Below, piece by piece: positions 10,029-30,747 of a stretch of 36,271 bases of DNA. The stretch's first letter is position 1; each line of letters starts with the position of its first letter. A program made the translations under genes and the position numbers. The DNA is taken from the NCBI GenBank assembly GCA_028823035.1, contig JAPKCI010000040.1:1-36271 (forward strand). The letters run 5' to 3'. The DNA comes from Rubripirellula sp. Its GTDB lineage: Bacteria; Planctomycetota; Planctomycetia; Pirellulales; Pirellulaceae. Below the pieces are notes generated by a model. That model searched no databases, was not told where the DNA came from, and saw only the letters and a program-made list of their open reading frames with translations.

Positions 10029-10349
10029 CGAGACATGGCTTATTGAAAATGGTTCTCATTAGCCACTAGTGTAACCGCCGGTTCCCGCCAGTCAACTTCC
10101 GCGGAGTGTGGCGAGGCCGCTGAGCTACGACCAGCCCGAAAACCCAGCAAAATCCTTGTTTTCTGTGACTAGTTCCACCGCCTCGCTTGTGATCCGAGGT
10201 GCATGACGCGGTTTGCAAGCGAGATGGTAACCTGCGTGACGGTCCTAGCGATTCCCTCCAGCATCAGCCAAAATGGCTGCTGTGGCTCCACCGCAAAGAT
10301 CAGCGTCTCCACAGTCATCACAACAGCTTCATTCCTTCGGCACTGCTTG
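10029..10349. other. Intergenic stretch upstream of selB; no tRNA-Sec seen
   Basis: The selB frame is open back to 10203, but the extension does not resemble SelB, whose G domain begins at once after the ATG at 10350. I checked both strands for a long tRNA with a UCA anticodon and an extended acceptor arm and found none. Confidence 0.5.
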
Positions 10350-12272
10350 ATGAGCTACACGATCATTGGCGTGATTGGTCATATCGACCACGGAAAAACT
10401 TCGCTGGTTGCTGCCCTGACCGGTGTCGACACGGATACCCACCCGGAAGAAAAACGGCGAGGGATCACGATCGACCTTGGCTTTGCCACCTTTTCTCATG
10501 GGGATGATCAGTTCGCGTTGATCGATGCACCGGGGCATCAGAAGTACATCGGTAATCTGCTTGCAGGCGTCTCGGCCGTCGATATTGGATTGTTGGTCGT
10601 TGCCTGTGATCAAGGGATTCAGGCTCAAACCCTTGAACATGCGGCGATCCTACAATCCCTGGGTGTGTCCAAACTGATCGTCGCGATGTCTCGAAACGAT
10701 CTGGTCGATGAAGCGACGCGAGTTGAGTTGGCAGAGGAATTGGAATTTTTCCTCTCCGAATTTGGTTTTGAAGACATCCCCAAACTACCACTCTCATCGG
10801 TCACCGGCGAAGGCCTGGACGAACTCCGAACATTGCTATCACAGCTGGCACGCAAGACTGAGCGTTCTGCATCTGAACACTTCAGAATGCCGGTGGACCG
10901 CATTTTCACGGTCGAGGGTCGTGGCTGCGTGGTAGCGGGATCTCCATGGAGCGGCGTCCTGAGTGTCGGCGACCAGGTCCAGATTGCTCGGACAGGTCAA
11001 CTGGCACGTGTTCGTGAAATCGAGGTCCACGGGCAGGACAGAGAACAATCACGCATTGGTGAACGCACTGCGTTGAACCTGGCGGGCGTTTCATCGACGA
11101 CCTTGGTCAGGGGCGACGAACTTGTCGCCAAGAACACCCACACTCCTGCGAGCCGAATCCTGGTTGAGCTCACAATGTTCAACGATGCCAAGGAAGTGCG
11201 ATGTCCCACTACGATACAGTTGCACTCAGCAACCAACGCCACCGCAGCCCGTCTGTTCGGTCCCCGAACGATCGCCGGGGGTGAGTGTGCAATTGTTCTT
11301 GTCGACGTGGAACAACCGATCGTCGCGACGCACGGTCAGGCATGCCTGTTTCGACGCCCCTACCCTGTCGGCTCGTTCGCCGGCGGGCGAGTGCTGGGGA
11401 CGGTACAGCCAGCAGCCAAACAAACCACGCGACTGCTGGACATGGGCGCACGACTGCGTGATTCCAGCCCAGCAGAACGTCTGACTGCCTGGGTCGATTT
11501 CCACGGCGAGGCCCCGCTGCAGCCTATCGCTCTCGAACTGAACATCGGACTCAAGGCCGACCAGTTGGACGACGTGATCCAACAGTGCCTTCAAGCTGGC
11601 ACAATAATCTCAACTGACAATCAAAATTTGACCTCACCCAAGCTGCTGCCTCGGCTTTCAAAGTTTCTGTTAAATCTACTCACACACCAAGCCAAGTCGA
11701 CAGACGATGCCTGGCTTGACGTACAGTCAGTGGTTCAGCGGGCCCTTCCGCTCGCGTCAGCTCAAACCGTGCGGATCCTTCTGGAGCAGATGATCAAGGA
11801 AAAACAGATCGTACGGGTCAACCGAATGATTGCTGTTCCGTCGGAAACAACTGTCCTATCCAAGAAACAGCTCAACCGAATGAAGCAGTTACTGGCGTTG
11901 TACCTCGACGAGCGCAAGCCTCCCACGCTGAAGGAAGCCGCGGTTGCTCTGGACAGCCCGCCAGACACAGTCGCGTCGCTGATTCGGTTCGCGACTCAGC
12001 AACGGATTCTGATCGACCTCGGAAATGGTTTTTTTGTCTCACAACAGTCCTTTGACACGCTGTGCGAGGAACTTCGCAACCTGTTCACCGAGTCCGCCCA
12101 AAGAACGGTAGCCGAAATCCGCGACCACTGGGAAATCACCCGCAAACATGCCATCCCGCTGCTGGAGTATTGTGACAGGTACAGGATCACGCTTCGCGAC
12201 GGTGATGTTCGAATTCAAGGCGATGGAATGCCCCCAACCCAAACCCCAGCAACCGCCGGATCGGAATCGTGA
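10350..12272 (+). CDS. selB: Selenocysteine-specific elongation factor SelB
   Basis: The protein is 640 aa from the ATG at 10350. It is an EF-Tu-like GTPase that carries Sec-tRNA to the ribosome and recognises the SECIS hairpin on selenoprotein mRNA. The P-loop GHIDHGKT is at residues 10-17, the switch I region has [10 protein letters not shown], and DAPGH is at 59-63. The guanine-specificity motif reads SRND at 114-117 rather than the usual N/T-K-x-D, an unusual Lys to Arg change. Domains II and III follow to about residue 370, and the C-terminal winged-helix repeats that bind SECIS RNA run from about 400 to 625. The stop overlaps the selA start by four bases (GTGA), implying translational coupling. 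The UGA-containing gene at 16728-17903 is a likely client. Confidence 0.96.
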
Positions 12273-13678
12273 CGAAAGCCCAACGTTTGAGAGCGCTGCC
12301 ATCGGTGGATGTGATCCTCCGCGACCCACAGGTAATGGCACTCCGAGACACCAACTCAGTCGCACCAATCACCAACTGGGCGCGGACTGCTGTGCAGGAC
12401 TGCCGCAATCAGATTCTTAAGGATGGTGACAATTTTGATGCTCCACTAACAGCGTGGATCATCGAGCGGATTCTCAGTCAGTCGAAAATGGACCTCGGCC
12501 AGCGACTTCAACCAGTGATCAACGCGACGGGGGTTGTACTACACACCAACCTTGGCCGCTCACCGATGTCCGACAAGGCCATTGCTGCGGCTGAACAGGC
12601 AGCCAGATACACCAACGTAGAACTGAATCTGGAATCGGGTCGCCGCAGCAAGCGGGGCGAACGCTTGATGAACCTGTTGGCTCAACTGACAGGCGCCGAG
12701 GATGCCTTGGTGGTCAACAACTGCGCCGCTGCAACGGTGCTGGTCCTGCAAGCGATCGCGTCGGGCCGCGAGGTGATTGTCTCACGCGGACAGCTAGTCG
12801 AAATCGGCGGTGGATTTCGCCTGCCCGACGTGTTCCGGGCCGCCGGGGTGACCCTACGGGAAGTCGGCACCACCAATCGAACGTATCTAAGCGATTACGA
12901 GTCGGCCATTAACGAAGCAACCGGAGCTATCATCCGCGTCCACCGCAGCAATTTCCAATTGGCTGGCTTTGTTGCCGAACCGAACATCGACGAATTGGTT
13001 TTAATCGATCGTCCCGAATCCGTCGCCGTGATCGATGATCTGGGAAGCGGATGCGTCAGCGATCTATCACCCTACGGTTTACATGAACCCAATGTGCTGG
13101 AAAGCATTCGCTCGGGAGCCGACGTGTCGCTGTTCAGCGGTGACAAACTCTTCGGAGGACCGCAAGCAGGAATCCTTGTTGGAAAAAGGCGGTGGATCGA
13201 GAAACTGCGGCGTAGCCCGATCATGCGGGCATTGCGTGTGGACAAACTGACATTGGCCGCGCTGGAAGCAACAACCGAGATTCATCTGGCGGGCGACGCA
13301 CTGACCGAGTTGCCAACGCTGCGAATGATCACCATGCCTGCGGATCAGATCAAGTCGCGATGCGAAACGCTGTTATCCCAGTTCGACCAGCAACAGCCGA
13401 TTGAGCTGGTGCCGTGTGAATCCCAGGTTGGAGGAGGCTCGATCCCCGGATCGAGTCTGGCCAGCTTTGGTTTGAGACTCACCGGTTATCCTGCCCATCG
13501 TTTGGCCCAACGACTACGGGAAGGACCACCTGCAATCCAAGCGAGAGTCAATGATGACTCCGTCCTGATTGATCTCCGCACCGTTGCTGACAACGAGCTC
13601 AATCCACTGGCCGAGGGAATCCGTTCAGCCATGTTGCGGACCATGCCTATTCAACCCACCGGAACATCCCCGGAATGA
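12269..13678 (+). CDS. selA: L-seryl-tRNA(Sec) selenium transferase SelA
   Basis: The protein is 469 aa. The GTG at 12269 is the right start because residues 8-27 (RALPSVDVILRDPQVMALRD) match the family N-terminus (LPAIDRLLRD type); the ATG at 12337 would remove it. SelA is a large PLP-dependent cytoplasmic enzyme that converts seryl-tRNA(Sec) to selenocysteinyl-tRNA using selenophosphate. Visible motifs are INATGVVLHTNLGRSP near residues 84-99, ESGRRSKRGER at 122-132, and the PLP-binding lysine Lys293 in SLFSGDKLFGGPQAG. The length is close to the E. coli protein. It overlaps selB by GTGA and selD by ATGA. Confidence 0.97.
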   Translation: MTKAQRLRALPSVDVILRDPQVMALRDTNSVAPITNWARTAVQDCRNQILKDGDNFDAPLTAWIIERILSQSKMDLGQRLQPVINATGVVLHTNLGRSPMSDKAIAAAEQAARYTNVELNLESGRRSKRGERLMNLLAQLTGAEDALVVNNCAAATVLVLQAIASGREVIVSRGQLVEIGGGFRLPDVFRAAGVTLREVGTTNRTYLSDYESAINEATGAIIRVHRSNFQLAGFVAEPNIDELVLIDRPESVAVIDDLGSGCVSDLSPYGLHEPNVLESIRSGADVSLFSGDKLFGGPQAGILVGKRRWIEKLRRSPIMRALRVDKLTLAALEATTEIHLAGDALTELPTLRMITMPADQIKSRCETLLSQFDQQQPIELVPCESQVGGGSIPGSSLASFGLRLTGYPAHRLAQRLREGPPAIQARVNDDSVLIDLRTVADNELNPLAEGIRSAMLRTMPIQPTGTSPE

Positions 13679-15831
13679 ATGAACGACTTGCCTCAAGACA
13701 CATCGTCCTGTTGGGGATCGGCCACACCAACGCGCACGTCCTCCGTATGTATGCCATGCGAGGTTTGCCGGACACTGCGCTGACCTGCATTTCCGACCAT
13801 CATGTTTCTGCCTATTCAGGCATGCTTCCAGCGGTACTGGCTGGACAGGTGCCCCAGACGGCCATGGAAATTGATCTGGTCAAACTGTGCGCCTCGGTCG
13901 GAGCCAGGCTGATCACCCAACGCGTCTCCGGTCTCGATCCCACCAAACGTCAGATCCACTTTGAGGATCGTCCGCCGATGGATTACGACCTGCTATCCAT
14001 TGGCGTCGGCTCAACCGCAGTGCGTAACGCCGTCAGTGTGACCAGCAAATCCGTGGTCGAAATCAAACCCATGCAGTCTTTTCTTGAACGACTGCAAGCC
14101 GTCGTATCCCAACTGAAAGAAAAGGTCGGTGATCGATCGCTGCGCGTTGCGGTTGCTGGCAGCGGTGCGGCAGGGTTGGAAATCGCATTTTGTTTACCCG
14201 CGTTCATTAAGAAGCATTGGCCTGGCAACTTTTCAATCACGTTGGTCACGCGAAGCAAGAATATTCTTGAAGGTTCGCGAACGCGCACACGGCAGATGGC
14301 GCTGAATGAATTTCAGCATCGCAACGTTAAGGTTGTCACCGCTGCCACCGTTGATTCACTTGAAGAGGGACGCATCACGTTCAGCAATGGTGAAACCCTC
14401 GACGCTGACGTCGTGATCTGGTCCACCGGTGCAGCACCGCCACCCATCCTCAGCCAACTTGGGTTGGCAACAGACGCCAACGGCTTCCTGCTGACCCGTC
14501 CAACACTGCAGTCAGTCACGAACCCACACGTATTCGCCGTCGGTGACACAGGAACGCTCGAAACGCAACCAACCCCCAAGGCAGGAGTCTACGCAGTCCG
14601 TCAGGGTCCCATTCTCTGGAAGAATCTGCAACGATCATTGGCGGGGGAAACCCTGAAACCGTATCGTCCGCAACACAATTTCATGCAGTTGCTCAATCTC
14701 GGTGATGGAACCGCCATCGGTCAATGGAAATCCTTGACCTTTTCAGGACGCTGGGTGATGCGTCTAAAACATTCCATCGACACTGCTTTCATGGACAAGT
14801 TCCAAGCTGAACCGATGCTTGACGAAGAAGATCCCATGCAATGCCGCGGTTGCGGATGCAAAGTGGGCGCCGACCTTCTAGCCTCGGCCTTGCCTGCGGC
14901 CGGCAATATCAAGTTTGATGACGCCGCAGAAATTGGTCGTACCGAAGAACATAAGATCGTCGCATCCACCGATTTCTTCACGAGTCCCTTCGTGGACCCT
15001 TTTCTGACAGGGCGGGTCGCAGCGCTTCATGCCGCCAGCGACATCGTCGCCAGCGGCGCCGAGGCAAAGTATGCTCTCTCGAACGTCGTGATTCCAATGG
15101 GTCCCCCGGGACCCCAGCAGGCTGTCCTCAGAGAACTGCTTGCAGGCGCAAAATGCGAATTTGACGCGATGGATGCTGCGATCGTTGGCGGTCATACCAT
15201 CGAAGGACCGCGATTGGAAATTGGGTTCACCGTGATCGGTAACACCTTGGGCGAAAGCCTGCTTGAAAAGCGGAACCTGCAAGTCGGCGATGGCTTGTAT
15301 GTGACGAAACCTATCGGCATCGGAGTGTTGCTGGCTGCCCACATGCGGAGTCGCTGCTCTGCCGCAGACTACCGGCAGCTCGTCGACGCAATGCTGGAAC
15401 GGCAACATGCGTATGCAAGACTTGCAATTCAATCTGGCATAATCGCAGGTACTGACGTCACAGGCTTTGGATTGGCAGGGCATCTGTTGGAAATGATCGA
15501 CGCCAGTCAGACGGGGGCTTGCCTGCAGTTGGACCGGATCCCTGTTTTACCAGGTGCCTGCGATGCCATCGCCGGCGGTATCCAGAGCAGTTTGGCTCCC
15601 AGCAATCGTATGGCCGCCGTCAAGATTCAAGCCACGCCGGACATCCGACGCCAACCCACTTTCGATCTGCTGTTTGACCCGCAAACCTGCGGCGGTTTGT
15701 TGCTCGGTATCGCCGACGAGCAAATGCAAAGCCTCGAATTGAAGATTGCAGACTCTGGATTTCGCCCCCTTGTCCGCATCGGAACGGTGACTGCTTCCAA
15801 CGCCAACCAGCAACCACTGTTGGTCAAGTAA
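13675..15831 (+). CDS. selD: Selenide, water dikinase SelD fused to an N-terminal FAD/NAD(P) oxidoreductase
   Basis: The protein is 718 aa. Residues 1 to about 370 form a pyridine nucleotide-disulphide oxidoreductase of the NADH dehydrogenase type (the TIGR03169 class found N-terminal to SelD). The first nucleotide-binding loop is LLGIGHTNAH, the second is AVAGSGAAGLEIAF at about 159-172, and the FAD-site motif VFAVGDTG is near 286-293. Residues about 385-718 are SelD, which makes selenophosphate from selenide and ATP. Its catalytic pair is Cys393 and Lys396 in RGCGCK, so this SelD uses Cys where some SelD proteins use Sec. The oxidoreductase may reduce selenium compounds to feed the kinase; this is inference. 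The ATG overlaps the selA stop, completing a three-gene coupled operon. Confidence 0.96.
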   Translation: MNERLASRHIVLLGIGHTNAHVLRMYAMRGLPDTALTCISDHHVSAYSGMLPAVLAGQVPQTAMEIDLVKLCASVGARLITQRVSGLDPTKRQIHFEDRPPMDYDLLSIGVGSTAVRNAVSVTSKSVVEIKPMQSFLERLQAVVSQLKEKVGDRSLRVAVAGSGAAGLEIAFCLPAFIKKHWPGNFSITLVTRSKNILEGSRTRTRQMALNEFQHRNVKVVTAATVDSLEEGRITFSNGETLDADVVIWSTGAAPPPILSQLGLATDANGFLLTRPTLQSVTNPHVFAVGDTGTLETQPTPKAGVYAVRQGPILWKNLQRSLAGETLKPYRPQHNFMQLLNLGDGTAIGQWKSLTFSGRWVMRLKHSIDTAFMDKFQAEPMLDEEDPMQCRGCGCKVGADLLASALPAAGNIKFDDAAEIGRTEEHKIVASTDFFTSPFVDPFLTGRVAALHAASDIVASGAEAKYALSNVVIPMGPPGPQQAVLRELLAGAKCEFDAMDAAIVGGHTIEGPRLEIGFTVIGNTLGESLLEKRNLQVGDGLYVTKPIGIGVLLAAHMRSRCSAADYRQLVDAMLERQHAYARLAIQSGIIAGTDVTGFGLAGHLLEMIDASQTGACLQLDRIPVLPGACDAIAGGIQSSLAPSNRMAAVKIQATPDIRRQPTFDLLFDPQTCGGLLLGIADEQMQSLELKIADSGFRPLVRIGTVTASNANQQPLLVK

Positions 15832-15878: not shown

Positions 15879-16559
15879 TTACTTGGTGACCCATTCCGAA
15901 GTGTCTGGCTCGCTGCCATCACGATTCACTTCCTTGATGCCCCGAATTAGTTGGTAGGGAACCTGGAAAACCCCCACTACGATCAAGCCAATCATGCCGC
16001 CAAAAGCCACCGTACCTGTGAGGCCAGGATCCAACAGAGAAACGATCGCGAGAGTCACTCCAAATAGAAAGAGCAAGGTTTTGAATTCGGTTGGGCCAAA
16101 GCGTGCCAGCGTGAACTCGCCCACCAACTTCGCTTTGATGTTAGTGAGGTTGGCTAGTGCCAGCAAACAAACGACCGCAACCAATGCCAGATCCAACCTT
16201 TCGACGGCATACCCGATTCCGATCAGCCAGTAAGTGAATGAGATAGGGTCCGTAAAATGATCCAGCAACTCGCCACCATTACGACATTGACCGCTAGCTC
16301 GCGCGTGGGTGCCATCGATGCAATCTGCAGTGTGGTTTCCAACGATACCAAAGGCTGCCAGCAAACCGGCCCACCAATACTGAGTCGCTAACGCGAACCC
16401 GATTCCACCGACCACGGCAAATCCGTGGCCAATCAAAACGATGCCCTCCGGTGGAAACCATTTTGGAATATGGACTTTCGGGTACAGCGACTTGAGAACT
16501 GGACCAATCCACGGATCAAGAACGCTATGCGAGACTCGCTTGGACATCGTCATCCCCAT
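15879..16559 (-). CDS. CDP-alcohol phosphatidyltransferase family membrane protein
   Basis: The protein is 226 aa. Start candidates are three ATGs at 16559, 16553 and 16547. The signature D-x2-D-G-x2-A-R-x8-G-x3-D-x3-D is complete: Asp79, Asp82, Gly83, Ala86, Arg87, Gly96, Asp100 and Asp104. Several hydrophobic segments (about 38-58, 62-78, 105-140, 155-215) fit the usual six-helix bundle in the inner membrane. These enzymes transfer a phospho-alcohol from a CDP-linked donor to an acceptor alcohol, usually in phospholipid synthesis. The GELLDH sequence around the third Asp resembles the choline/ethanolamine phosphotransferase branch more than PgsA or PssA, but the substrate is unknown. It ends in TAA, converges with selD, and lies about 170 bases after the putative selenoprotein gene. 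Confidence 0.87.
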   Translation of the reverse strand: MGMTMSKRVSHSVLDPWIGPVLKSLYPKVHIPKWFPPEGIVLIGHGFAVVGGIGFALATQYWWAGLLAAFGIVGNHTADCIDGTHARASGQCRNGGELLDHFTDPISFTYWLIGIGYAVERLDLALVAVVCLLALANLTNIKAKLVGEFTLARFGPTEFKTLLFLFGVTLAIVSLLDPGLTGTVAFGGMIGLIVVGVFQVPYQLIRGIKEVNRDGSEPDTSEWVTK

Positions 16560-16727: not shown

Positions 16728-17903
16728 CTACCTCAAATAGCCATCCAGCCAGCCTCTCGCACCTTGGGGAGCGACATCATCAGCGATGTCATTTCCGTCC
16801 GCGAGTTGAAAAGTGACGGCGAGTGGAAAACGCCCTTCAGGAGCGTTTCTGGTGTAGGTACCCTCACCAAAAAACTCGCCCAAGGCAACAAGTTCAAATT
16901 GCTTTACCTTGCCAGATTCAGACAGAACTCGGCCACGCAAACTGGCTTCGTAGCCACGTTTACCATCTTCTGTTTCAAGCCGTACTGTGCCCGTGAGAAC
17001 ACCATCTTTGAGGTTGAGGTCCATCTGTCGGATTTCGTCTTTCTTCCACATCGGTGGCTCGCCGCGTGTGTTGTCCACCAAGTGGAAGCGGGCTAGCCGG
17101 TGCTGCAAACTGGTCGGCACCCGCCCTGCGCCAAGTGCTTCGTGTTCTGCCGAAGTAATCCATAGATTGTCGCGAGAAATTGCATTCTGGAACAGCTCAC
17201 GACTGGGGGTTTTGGCCGGTTCATAGCCCCCCAGTACTTTGGCGTGAACGCGTACAACAAGTCCGTTTTCCGGCGGTCGAAGGGTATACCGGGCATCCTT
17301 CTTCTGAGTCCCCGCCCTGTCAACTTCAGCTTTCAACTTGGCTTGATCAAAGGGATAGGCGCCCAAGTCATATTCACGAAGACGTTCCTTCATCAAACGC
17401 AAAAGCTTTTGAGGGTCGCGATTGTTGTTGTATAGCAGCAGTTCTCCACTCGCAGTGGCGATATAGAATCCCTGCGTGGTGGACTGAAAGTTGCTCCGTG
17501 GACCTTGTCCTGCGATCTGACGATACAGCAGTCCCTCTTCATCCTTCTGCCGTCTCTGGCAGGCCTGATCAATGGCAACGGGAACGAAACGTGTCTTCAG
17601 CAGTTGTACGATCTCTGGTTGGGCGAAGGTCGACGCACGGTCGATGACACCGTTGTTTCACGTACAGCCAAGTGGGTGCCCGTCCATGGCCCAGATAAAG
17701 ATCGGCTTGTCCTGCTGCAATGCTTCCCGGCGTGCATCAAGCACCGATAACTTCCATGGGATGGTTCGCCAAACCGCGTCTTCACCCGGTTGCAGTTGAG
17801 TCAACAAATCCTTGCATCTCTGATCAGAAAGCTCTTCAGCGGGCACCCCATGCAGAGACGCCCACCCAACCAGCAGGCCAAACACCAGAATCAGACGTTT
17901 CAT
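16728..17903 (-). CDS. Putative secreted thioredoxin-like selenoprotein with in-frame UGA (Sec82)
   Basis: Read through the TGA at 17658-17660, the gene encodes 391 residues and ends in TAG. It starts at ATG 17903 with GGAAG about eight bases upstream and a signal peptide (MKRLILVFGLLVGWASLHGVPA), suggesting export. Residues about 45-175 look thioredoxin-like: KPIFIWAMDGHPLGCT, then Sec82, NNG, and VQLLKTRFVPVAID, a strand, active-site turn and helix in which Cys80 and Sec82 form a C-x-U redox pair. Residues about 200-391 form a second, strand-rich domain (YTLRPPENGLVVRVHAKVL; GVLTGTVRLETEDG) of unknown role. The frame is open for 81 codons before and 309 after the TGA with no frameshift. A SECIS-like hairpin follows the TGA, and selBAD lies nearby. 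The alternative, a pseudogene with one nonsense change, fits less well. Substrate unknown. Confidence 0.87.
17630..17660 (-). promoter_or_regulatory. Candidate bacterial SECIS element with its UGA codon
   Basis: The UGA occupies 17658-17660. On the minus strand, 13 nt later, UCGAC (17640-17644) pairs perfectly with GUCGA (17630-17634) around a 5-nt loop CGUGC. The loop begins 18 nt after the UGA and has G at its second position, fitting the general bacterial SECIS description of a short coding-region hairpin with a loop G and a UGA-to-loop distance of roughly 16-37 nt. A competing hairpin, ACGGU with ACCGU four nt after the UGA, is also possible but lies too close to the codon to fit. Recognition by SelB is inference. 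Confidence 0.65.
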
Positions 17904-18120
17904 GAATCAACTTCCACTTTCAGAATGATGTAACTGCCTGCACTTTTCAAAGAGTACAAGGAAGGCGACCTACAGCTTAGCAGTCATGAGTAGCACAGTC
18001 ATCCAAACAAGGCCGCCTGCCACGCGGAACCACAGACTGCACAGCAGTACACCATGCAGTGGCAGGCAAATGGCACTCCAGGCCCCAATCAAGAATGCTG
18101 CACAATGCGACCTGTCATGC
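17904..18120. other. Gap between the selenoprotein gene and the upstream terminator
   Basis: A minus-strand frame of 62 codons (17970-18158) encodes hydrophobic residues, but it begins inside the terminator hairpin and I do not support it. The stretch should hold the promoter of the putative selenoprotein gene; no clear promoter was recognised. Confidence 0.4.
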
Positions 18121-19610: not shown

Positions 19611-19915
19611 GAATATCCCTCAAGGGTGTAATTGATGGACCTAATCAGTCCGTAGTTGCGTTTTTGAGTGCCTCCACACCATAACAAAGGGAGCCGTTTC
19701 TAACAATCATTTTGATTGATTTGAGCGGTCCCTGATTCGTTGCCAGCACCGCGGTAAACGTCTACCCTGTCTGCTGGCCAAAGCACAGCGTTGAGCTGAC
19801 CCCGCCGACACCACTACACACCGTTACAAACCGCGTCCGCAACCCTAAAATGTTGCATTTTCTCAACCCGGTGTTGCGTTCCGACGCAAATCCACCTTTG
19901 AAAAACTACCGACCC
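19611..19915. other. Divergent intergenic region
   Basis: This stretch separates the minus-strand oxidoreductase from the plus-strand LRR lipoprotein and should hold both promoters. I see no repeat, hairpin or additional gene that I can support. Confidence 0.4.
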
Positions 19916-21268
19916 ATGCAAAAGAACTGTTTTTATCACATCTCCGCCAGTCTCTGTCTGATCGCTGGAATCGTGCTCAGCGGATGTGATCGCGGATCCT
20001 CGCCCACCGATCCAAGTAGCACTGCGACGGGTCCCAATTCTGCAGATTCATTAAACGAGCGGACCCTCAAAACTTCCCTGCCAGCAGATGACCCTGATAA
20101 GGTCGCCGCGTTAGAGAAAGCGGGATTCAGTCTAACGCGGAATACCGATGGCGTCGTAACAGCCTTCTCCATCGTCTCTGATGAACCGATCAGCGATGCT
20201 CTTCCTGATCTAGCCGGAGTCCCCAACGCGCAGCAAGCGCTTTTTTCGGGTCCAGGCGTGACCGATGCCGGGATGGAGGCATTGGCCTCTCTTCAATCTC
20301 TGAAACGAATTGACTTTTCCAATTCGGCAATCAGCGACCCAACCCTCGAGGCTCTCTGCGATCTGCCCGATCTGGAAGTTCTATTCCTGCGTCGTACCGG
20401 CGTCAGTGACGAGGGGATGTCGAACCTGAAGAACCTCCATAAATTGAGGGCCATCGACCTCCGAAATACAAACGTAGGGGATGACGGTCTGAAGTATCTC
20501 ACAAGTCTAAAGCGACTCGCTGACATTCAAGTCGAAAAAGCGAATGTCAACGACGCCGGGATCGCACACATCGCAGGCCTACCGCTCAAGTCACTCAATG
20601 CCAATTACTGTACTACCATCAGCGATGCGGCGCTGAAGTCGTTAGCGAACACAACGACTCTTGAATCGCTGCAACTGGATTACACCAAACTGACAGATCA
20701 AGGAATGGCAGCGGTAGCCAATTTCACGAACCTAAAGCGACTGCGTATCCGTGGCACCGATGTCACCGGTGAGGGTCTCAAGAACATTCAACAACTAAAC
20801 GAACTTGCACGTCTTGAATTGCGAGACTCATCGCTCAACGATGCTGGCATGGCGATCATCGCCACCCTACCCAAGATGAACTATCTGGACATCAGCGAAT
20901 GCCGCCTCGTCTCGCCCGAAGGCATGAAGCAGATTGGCAAAATGACCAACCTGGAAGTATTGACCCTTTGGGAAACAAAGCTGAACGACGAAGCCCTTAA
21001 TGAGTATGGTGGACTCACCAAACTGAAAGCCTTGAATCTGAAGGCGACATCTATCTCTGACGAGTCGATTGACACCTTGATGAAATTGGTAAACCTTGAG
21101 GACTTGACCGTCGCCGGAACTCTGTTGACGGATGACAGTTTCCGAAAGTTGGGAACACTCCCTAATCTCAAAAAAATGAACGTCGCCAACACCAGCATTG
21201 GTTTCGACGTCATCGATGAGCTTGCCGAGTCGAATGAAGGACTCGAGATCATCGAATTCGAGAACTGA
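19916..21268 (+). CDS. Leucine-rich-repeat lipoprotein
   Basis: The protein is 450 aa from the ATG at 19916, chosen because it gives a lipoprotein signal peptide (MQKNCFYHISASLCLIAGIVLSGC) with lipobox LSGC and lipidated Cys24; the frame is open back to 19850. A Ser/Thr-rich linker follows. From about residue 100 to the end run roughly thirteen repeats of about 24 residues of the form T-x-V-[ST]-D-x-G-[ML]-x-x-L-x-x-L-x-x-L-x-x-L-x-L-x-x, the cysteine-containing-like LRR type that planctomycetes carry in large numbers. Such domains bind other proteins or glycans at the cell envelope, and no catalytic domain is present. The partner is unknown. Its 3' side abuts two tandem repeat arrays. Confidence 0.9.
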   Translation: MQKNCFYHISASLCLIAGIVLSGCDRGSSPTDPSSTATGPNSADSLNERTLKTSLPADDPDKVAALEKAGFSLTRNTDGVVTAFSIVSDEPISDALPDLAGVPNAQQALFSGPGVTDAGMEALASLQSLKRIDFSNSAISDPTLEALCDLPDLEVLFLRRTGVSDEGMSNLKNLHKLRAIDLRNTNVGDDGLKYLTSLKRLADIQVEKANVNDAGIAHIAGLPLKSLNANYCTTISDAALKSLANTTTLESLQLDYTKLTDQGMAAVANFTNLKRLRIRGTDVTGEGLKNIQQLNELARLELRDSSLNDAGMAIIATLPKMNYLDISECRLVSPEGMKQIGKMTNLEVLTLWETKLNDEALNEYGGLTKLKALNLKATSISDESIDTLMKLVNLEDLTVAGTLLTDDSFRKLGTLPNLKKMNVANTSIGFDVIDELAESNEGLEIIEFEN

Positions 21269-30623: not shown

Positions 30624-30747
30624 CCTTGTGCAATCATCCTTGTGCGTTAATCAATCCTCCTTGTGCGATAATCAATCACCCTTGTGCGTTAATCAATCAT
30701 CCTTGTGCGATAATCAATCATCCTTGTGCAATAATCCTTGTGCAATG
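30624..30747. repeat. 21-bp tandem array with alternating variants
   Basis: Four 21-bp units start at 30638, 30659, 30680 and 30701, all beginning ccttgtgcg. They alternate between gttaatcaatc and gataatcaatc, so the higher-order period is 42 bp. Shorter units of 14, 14 and 12 bases starting ccttgtgcaat flank the array at 30624, 30722 and 30736. The array lies about 100 bases upstream of the first F-like gene. Confidence 0.9.

Follow-up and report, generated by a model that had tools for sequence, protein, structure and literature searches.

A gene on the minus strand of the 36,271-nucleotide stretch of Rubripirellula DNA analysed here (the window) contains an internal UGA that very probably encodes selenocysteine (Sec) at residue 82. 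On strong comparative evidence its product is a selenoprotein. It is thioredoxin-like, a kind already known, its active site is rearranged, and its family appears to be uncatalogued. The coding sequence (16728..17903) runs from an ATG at 17903 to a TAG at 16730-16728 and comprises 391 codons, the sole in-frame break being the TGA at codon 82 (17660-17658); the chance of finding 309 open codons past that TGA is about 1e-6, given the local composition. An earlier reading made from the letters alone (the sequence-only reading) had described this frame, with TAG as its true stop and the motif WAMDGHPLGCT-U-NNG around the Sec codon, and each of these features was reproduced. It had also foreseen that ordinary gene calling would split the gene, and the predicted pieces are precisely what a table-11 ORF list contains: one of 81 residues (17658-17903) and one of 224 residues, N-terminally truncated and with TTG as its first codon (16728-17402). 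Plain ORF calling would in this way halve the gene of a family which, among the matches listed, is present in 116 of 392 genomes from the phylum (E ≤ 0.001, weak matches counted).

The sequence-only reading had placed a ribosome-binding site and a signal peptide at the start of the gene. The sequence GGAAG at 17911..17915 on the minus strand, 7 nt 5' of the ATG, is a weak ribosome-binding site picked out by eye. Residues 1-23 (17835..17903, boundary also set by eye) form a hydrophobic N-terminus that is signal-peptide-like by a simple hydropathy test, which 73 of 76 orthologue rows pass (near-copies counted). Judged by this N-terminus, the protein is probably exported.

The genes for selenocysteine insertion lie close by, at 10203-15831 on the plus strand, about 0.9 kb from the selenoprotein gene and with one gene between, in agreement with the distance of under 1 kb first noted. 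They comprise selB (10203..12272; TIGR00475, 316.5 bits against a cut-off of 242), selA (12269..13678; TIGR00474, 506.8 bits, cut-off 268) and an oxidoreductase-SelD fusion (13675..15831), which scores 365.6 bits with TIGR03169 (cut-off 310) and 239.5 bits with the selD model TIGR00476 (cut-off 125). The best E-value of the fusion is to TIGR04369, 'fusion_not_SelD', yet that match is below its cut-off (462.6 versus 700); a pyridine nucleotide-disulphide oxidoreductase domain precedes the fused SelD. The single gene separating the sel genes from the selenoprotein gene encodes a CDP-alcohol phosphatidyltransferase (15879-16559). A tRNA scan and an Rfam scan of the window gave no matches, and tRNA-Sec was found on a different contig of this genome (70.3 bits, cut-off 47). 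With selA, selB, a selD fusion and tRNA-Sec all present, the genome is in keeping with the earlier claim that the cell can insert Sec, and does not lack the tRNA whose absence had been named as a sign of a pseudogene.

Relatives were sought with six peptide patterns, from which Sec itself had been left out, in 84,980 species represented by a single genome apiece. The best 80 of the 85 relatives obtained are, by title, mostly from Planctomycetota and Verrucomicrobiota, a few being labelled otherwise. When the codon was read in them and in further loci, TGA was seen in the close family, mostly as GHPLGCTUNNG. Alignment of the residue-82 column, which the sequence-only reading had proposed as a check, covered 143 distinct family proteins spanning the site, obtained from 212 profile-match rows after dropping those that were short, gapped at the site or more than 90% identical. 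TGA stands at the column or no more than two codons away in 135 of them, and the remainder have Ser (six), Asp (one) or Pro (one). Cys or UGA had been expected in homologues: the UGA part of that expectation was confirmed, and Cys was found only in remote thioredoxin-like proteins. Because the count of 143 had split frames at TAA and TAG, possibly hiding such codons, it was repeated by reading through every stop. The 216 profile matches then gave TGA in 192, TGA within two codons in four, a gap in ten, Ser in six, Asp in one, Pro in one and Cys in two (L151 and L233, which are one remote gene), and none of the 206 site-spanning matches had TAA or TAG at the Sec column; without near-copies the result was again 135 TGA against eight non-Sec in 143. 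Within the taxonomic family of the window's own genome, 241 genomes yielded 77 matches at E ≤ 1e-20, three of which do not reach the site while 74 span it, with TGA in every one (in this list and in that for the phylum only fetched loci were read at the site, the others resting on the stop count); two of the 74 have one further stop. A 288-genome phylum sample around a Verrucomicrobia genome gave four matches, two with TGA and two weak ones without.

If the UGA were an ordinary stop, the locus would be a pseudogene or would specify two proteins, one of 81 and one of 224 residues, as the plain ORF list has it, and a few damaged copies do occur among the relatives: one extra TAA in L003/L037 (apparently one gene), one extra TAG in G797, and an apparently broken or cut copy, L231 (G806:C102), whose match extends no further than about family residue 66. 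Beyond these few, the stops and frameshifts scattered through relatives that the earlier reading would have taken for decay were not seen. Such a reading is exceedingly improbable, given that the site-spanning matches have TGA and never TAA or TAG, that protein constraint extends to both sides of the UGA, and that residues 83-124, which fall in neither piece, hold many invariant positions. In the comparison with congeners dN is 0.16-0.30 on either side of the UGA and dS is 2 or saturated; by this measure the constraint is strong both N- and C-terminal of the codon.

A readthrough independent of selenium, in which UGA is read as a common amino acid or has been reassigned, gains some purchase from the fact that the inserted residue cannot be named from sequence alone. 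It is very improbable all the same, TGA being a real stop in 43 of 92 close orthologue rows (TAG in 27 and TAA in 22, near-copies counted), and both the RNA structure downstream of the UGA and the distribution of selA count against it.

The candidate bacterial SECIS element lies inside the coding sequence 18 nt past the UGA, its upper stem-loop (17630..17644, minus strand) consisting of UCGAC, the loop CGUGC and GUCGA, with 5 bp and a predicted energy of -10.3 kcal/mol. A possible lower stem, GGUG with CGCC (17622..17651), is predicted in the window sequence and absent from the consensus fold. The bacterial SECIS model given in the accessible text of PMC13188914 has a loop of 3-9 nt, an upper stem of at least 4 bp, a G in the first two loop positions, a location 16-37 nt after the UGA and a minimum free energy of -7.5 or lower. 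In our own implementation of these published criteria, used in place of bSECISearch, the window hairpin qualifies, as do hairpins in 116 of 129 distinct family sequences, and 96 of the 129 have one at the window's exact spacing of 18. (The set comprises 148 genes with the motifs GHP..C.U or GNPLGCGU, 129 of them distinct with one-base near-copies kept, and excludes the CU, UxxC and CxxxxU relatives described below.) Three synonymous controls, with 20 replicates each, an SD of about 4 and relatedness left uncorrected, gave means of 77.1 hairpins for pooled synonymous codons (21.5 at spacing 18), 80.7 for permutation within each sequence (30.6) and 93.3 for a column-wise shuffle (60.9).

Covariation was analysed in a set reduced by near-identity from 137 to 95 sequences, of which 69 were used in one set and 25 in another, one (the second gene of L130) being left out. 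Across the 69, the six given stem pairs are paired in 87.0% of cells, against 81.6 when shuffled and at most 38.4 when slid, and the covariation score is 0.129 versus 0.040, not equalled by any of 500 shuffles; further pair types occur in an ordinary number (124 of 500 shuffles). Numbered from the U of UGA, positions 18 and 30 pair in all 69 sequences (CG 58, GC 8, UA 2, GU 1). This key pair joins third codon positions, usually of a Leu/Ile/Val codon and a Ser codon, and changes synonymously on both sides. The outermost pair does not form in 52 of the 69, and the consensus fold retains the other five. By the synonymous controls and the covariation, the SECIS-like stem-loop is under selection, contrary to what selenium-free readthrough would lead one to expect. 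Neither the stability of the window hairpin on its own, which is not above that of shuffles (z 0.35), nor the stem of a sister clade, whose register is shifted by 4 nt and whose covariation is not significant, was accepted as proof. In the selenocysteine reading, the stem-loop would direct recoding of UGA82, which SelB with Sec-tRNA would decode as selenocysteine.

The distribution of selA, which is above cut-off in 239 of the 392 sampled phylum genomes, points the same way. Of the 92 genomes that match the family at E ≤ 1e-20, 84 have it, as do 155 of the remaining 300 (Fisher p 3e-13, kinship ignored; selA was called by E-value here, some bit scores being unlisted), and this tracking of selA by the family speaks against a selenium-free reading of the UGA. 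So does the residue at the site in three of the eight strong-match genomes without a selA match, namely Ser in G156 and G232 and Pro in G354. G141 matched outside the site only, and the other four (G234, G272, G322 and G338) are fragmented assemblies in which TGA is present. Among 21 congeners, selA occurs in nine of 11 carriers of the gene versus four of ten non-carriers (p 0.06), which hints weakly at a link inside the genus; the carriers without selA above cut-off, G002 and G008, are fragmented assemblies. The six congeners with neither gene nor selA (G001, G003, G010, G012, G019 and G021, of which the G010 assembly is 66% complete) gave no family match whatsoever among the matches listed, and hence have no Cys substitute. 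Nine relatives in the genus have both genes: selA is on the same contig, a few kb away, in five (G005, G006, G009, G011 and G018) and on a separate contig in G013, G014, G015 and G017. One carrier has a complete genome (CP036526.1), that of Planctomycetes bacterium K23_9, which is presumably in culture. A plasmid search gave no match.

An AlphaFold2 model (59 rows; pLDDT 92.2, pTM 0.88) predicts two domains. The first, at residues ~40-180 (17364..17786), is thioredoxin-like in the model, in its PDB matches and in weak Pfam matches; the second, at residues ~205-391 (16731..17291), is mostly beta and matches no known family confidently. Around the site the model has a strand at 68-73, a loop holding Cys80 and Sec82, and a helix at 83-90. 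Foldseek matches were to the N-terminal part only, to 7tkv, a Thioredox_DsbH protein (E 4.8e-4), and to human AGR3, 3ph9 (E 5.2e-3, probability 1.00). The predicted fold and these solved-structure matches thus place a thioredoxin fold in the N-terminal domain only, the C-terminal domain giving no convincing Foldseek match to solved structures and no confident Pfam match. A sequence search of solved structures returned a single match, at E 0.26, and a viral structure library none at E ≤ 0.001.

The active site does not have the CxxC (or UxxC) pair, its sequence being C-T-U-N-N-G with Gly85 at the resolving position. In both protein alignments made, the redox residues that do not vary are Cys80 (17664..17666) and Sec82, and His76, near the site, is invariant in both as well; 29 of 75 orthologue rows contain exactly one Cys. 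Six of eight remote CxxC proteins (L185, L186, L223, L224, L225 and L234) have their first Cys opposite Sec82 and their second opposite Gly85 in the alignment, the other two (L227 and L232) aligning differently. Because the first Cys of the CxxC pair aligns with Sec82 in most of these proteins, we take Sec82 to be the residue that attacks, and Cys80, on its other side, to be a resolving thiol. The proposal that the TGA occupies the active-site position of a thioredoxin-like domain is upheld both by these alignments and by the model, in which Sec82 comes just before the helix, and it is at this redox-active position that the in-frame UGA is conserved. Standing at the N-terminal end of the active-site helix, Sec82 would take the place of the attacking Cys of CxxC thioredoxins, and Cys80, two residues before it, would replace the usual resolving Cys, whose place three residues after Sec is held by Gly85. 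The catalytic cycle would most likely pass through a Cys80-Sec82 selenenylsulphide, in the service of thiol/disulphide or peroxide reduction outside the cytoplasm.

The pairing of Cys80 with Sec had been part of the sequence-only reading, and it is favoured by the invariance of Cys80 in both alignments. At least three Sec members (L170, L179 and L184) lack Cys80, and none of them has UxxC, CU or CxxxxU either, so the selenenylsulphide is not general. Elsewhere among the relatives the position of a Cys near the Sec varies (UxxC in L022, CU in L017-L020, CxxxxU in L002 and L182), which supports the idea that the resolving thiol may be movable in the wider family. The selenoprotein could instead use its C-x-U to bind a metal or to carry a selenium or sulphur group, with no thiol redox chemistry, His76 being a possible ligand and Sec having been kept in the three members after loss of Cys80. 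We consider this unlikely, since Sec lies just before the helix where most of the aligned CxxC proteins have their first Cys, and since a Cys found at other places near Sec is as expected for a movable resolving thiol. Thiol redox chemistry at the site is the likely function. The window's genome encodes another member of the family, L002 (G000:C48:6896-7960, minus strand), which has 34% identity across the matched region and likewise one TGA (GNCLGFVUGNG); it comes after a frame with haem-type CxxCH motifs, and its Cys is five residues before Sec. Larger relatives of 440-662 aa (L017, L018, L019, L020, L021 and L023) have a Cys-Sec pair in the motif DDxRCU(V/G)FA.

The eight family proteins in which Asp, Ser or Pro stands at the Sec position (L143, L144, L145, L146, L147, L148, L149 and L150) all lack Cys80 too, and are possibly non-catalytic. 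Five of them are in selA-bearing genomes (G169, G220, G228, G367 and G432), and at L147 a Sec copy and a Ser copy are adjacent. On a tree made by a quick method with the site columns omitted, the non-Sec label requires four changes, three of them forced by starred branches (45 of the 140 inner branches are weak, and L145 is on a long branch); we infer that the direction of change is loss of Sec. As far as the sampling reaches, Sec seems to give way to non-redox residues or to absence of the gene and, with Cys at the site in none of the 143 distinct members, was never seen replaced by Cys, a pattern that we believe to be new. The broader statement that there is no Cys homologue anywhere was rejected, since remote thioredoxin-like proteins have Cys at the site, and the claim is restricted to the family. 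Those remote proteins include L151/L233, L222, L226 and L235, which share SCANSRFFR with Cys at the Sec column and are a possible Cys cousin of the domain.

The chances are about even that this is a 'selenium or nothing' family, whose active site works only with Sec, so that loss of Sec leads either to Ser, Asp or Pro with loss of Cys80 or to loss of the gene; members that have lost or relocated the Cys partner keep their Sec. If this were so, discovery methods requiring close Cys homologues would tend to miss the family. GrdA (glycine reductase selenoprotein A), which we take to be a different protein from the window protein, was likewise once thought to be without Cys homologues. These have since been reported, according to the accessible text of PMC12013277, where it is also stated that selenoproteins lacking Cys homologues may escape the method used there, and that such homologues now appear to exist for every known selenoprotein. 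Such Cys versions suggest that the gain from Sec is usually a matter of degree. In a family that does not pass via Cys, the question of what only selenium can do would be testable directly by one substitution.

Comparison with known families supports the earlier description of the protein as undescribed. The window protein reached the cut-off of no model in a Pfam and NCBIfam scan, and 35 family members gave weak matches only, chiefly with the models PF03190, PF13899 and those for VPGUxxT. The N-terminal fold is shared with Thioredox_DsbH/DUF255 (PF03190), to which the best structural match, 7tkv, belongs, and with Thioredoxin_7 (PF13899); the window protein scores 14.8 and 13.2, respectively, against gathering scores of 27, and has C-x-U with Gly for the second Cys, unlike the CxxC that we take those families to carry. 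The VPGUxxT proteins (NF041383/NF041382) are also thioredoxin-like (seleno)proteins, with a weak profile match to residues 48-114. They differ in motif, VPGUxxT as opposed to GCTUNNG, and the window protein scores 13.3 bits with NF041383 against a cut-off of 275, the best of the 35 members having E 0.0004. Table 1 of a 2026 review (PMC13188914) has 119 families, none recognisable as the window family. One entry, the thioredoxin-like selenoprotein Sec.1 (PF13192, motif CxU), shares C-x-U in a thioredoxin-like protein, and may be distinct, PF13192 not being among the six Pfam families that the 35 members match at E ≤ 0.1. The family was not seen in the accessible text of PMC2398784, PMC9402790, PMC5029168, PMC1794560 or PMC1242214. 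Selenoproteins have been reported in two planctomycetes, with candidates listed in a supplement (accessible text of PMC4807772); the judgement of novelty covers the openly readable literature, that supplement and preprints being outside its scope.

Ten neighbours of the gene outside the genus belong to differing families (DUF1501 twice, PQQ, PhoD, DUF7133 and others, with one lacking a match), so no function can be drawn from the neighbours. Elsewhere in the window, a 21-base unit occurs in five tandem copies at 30631-30736, inside about 700 bases with no ORF of 80 aa or more, and a leucine-rich-repeat protein (PF23598, PF13516) is encoded at 19850-21268.
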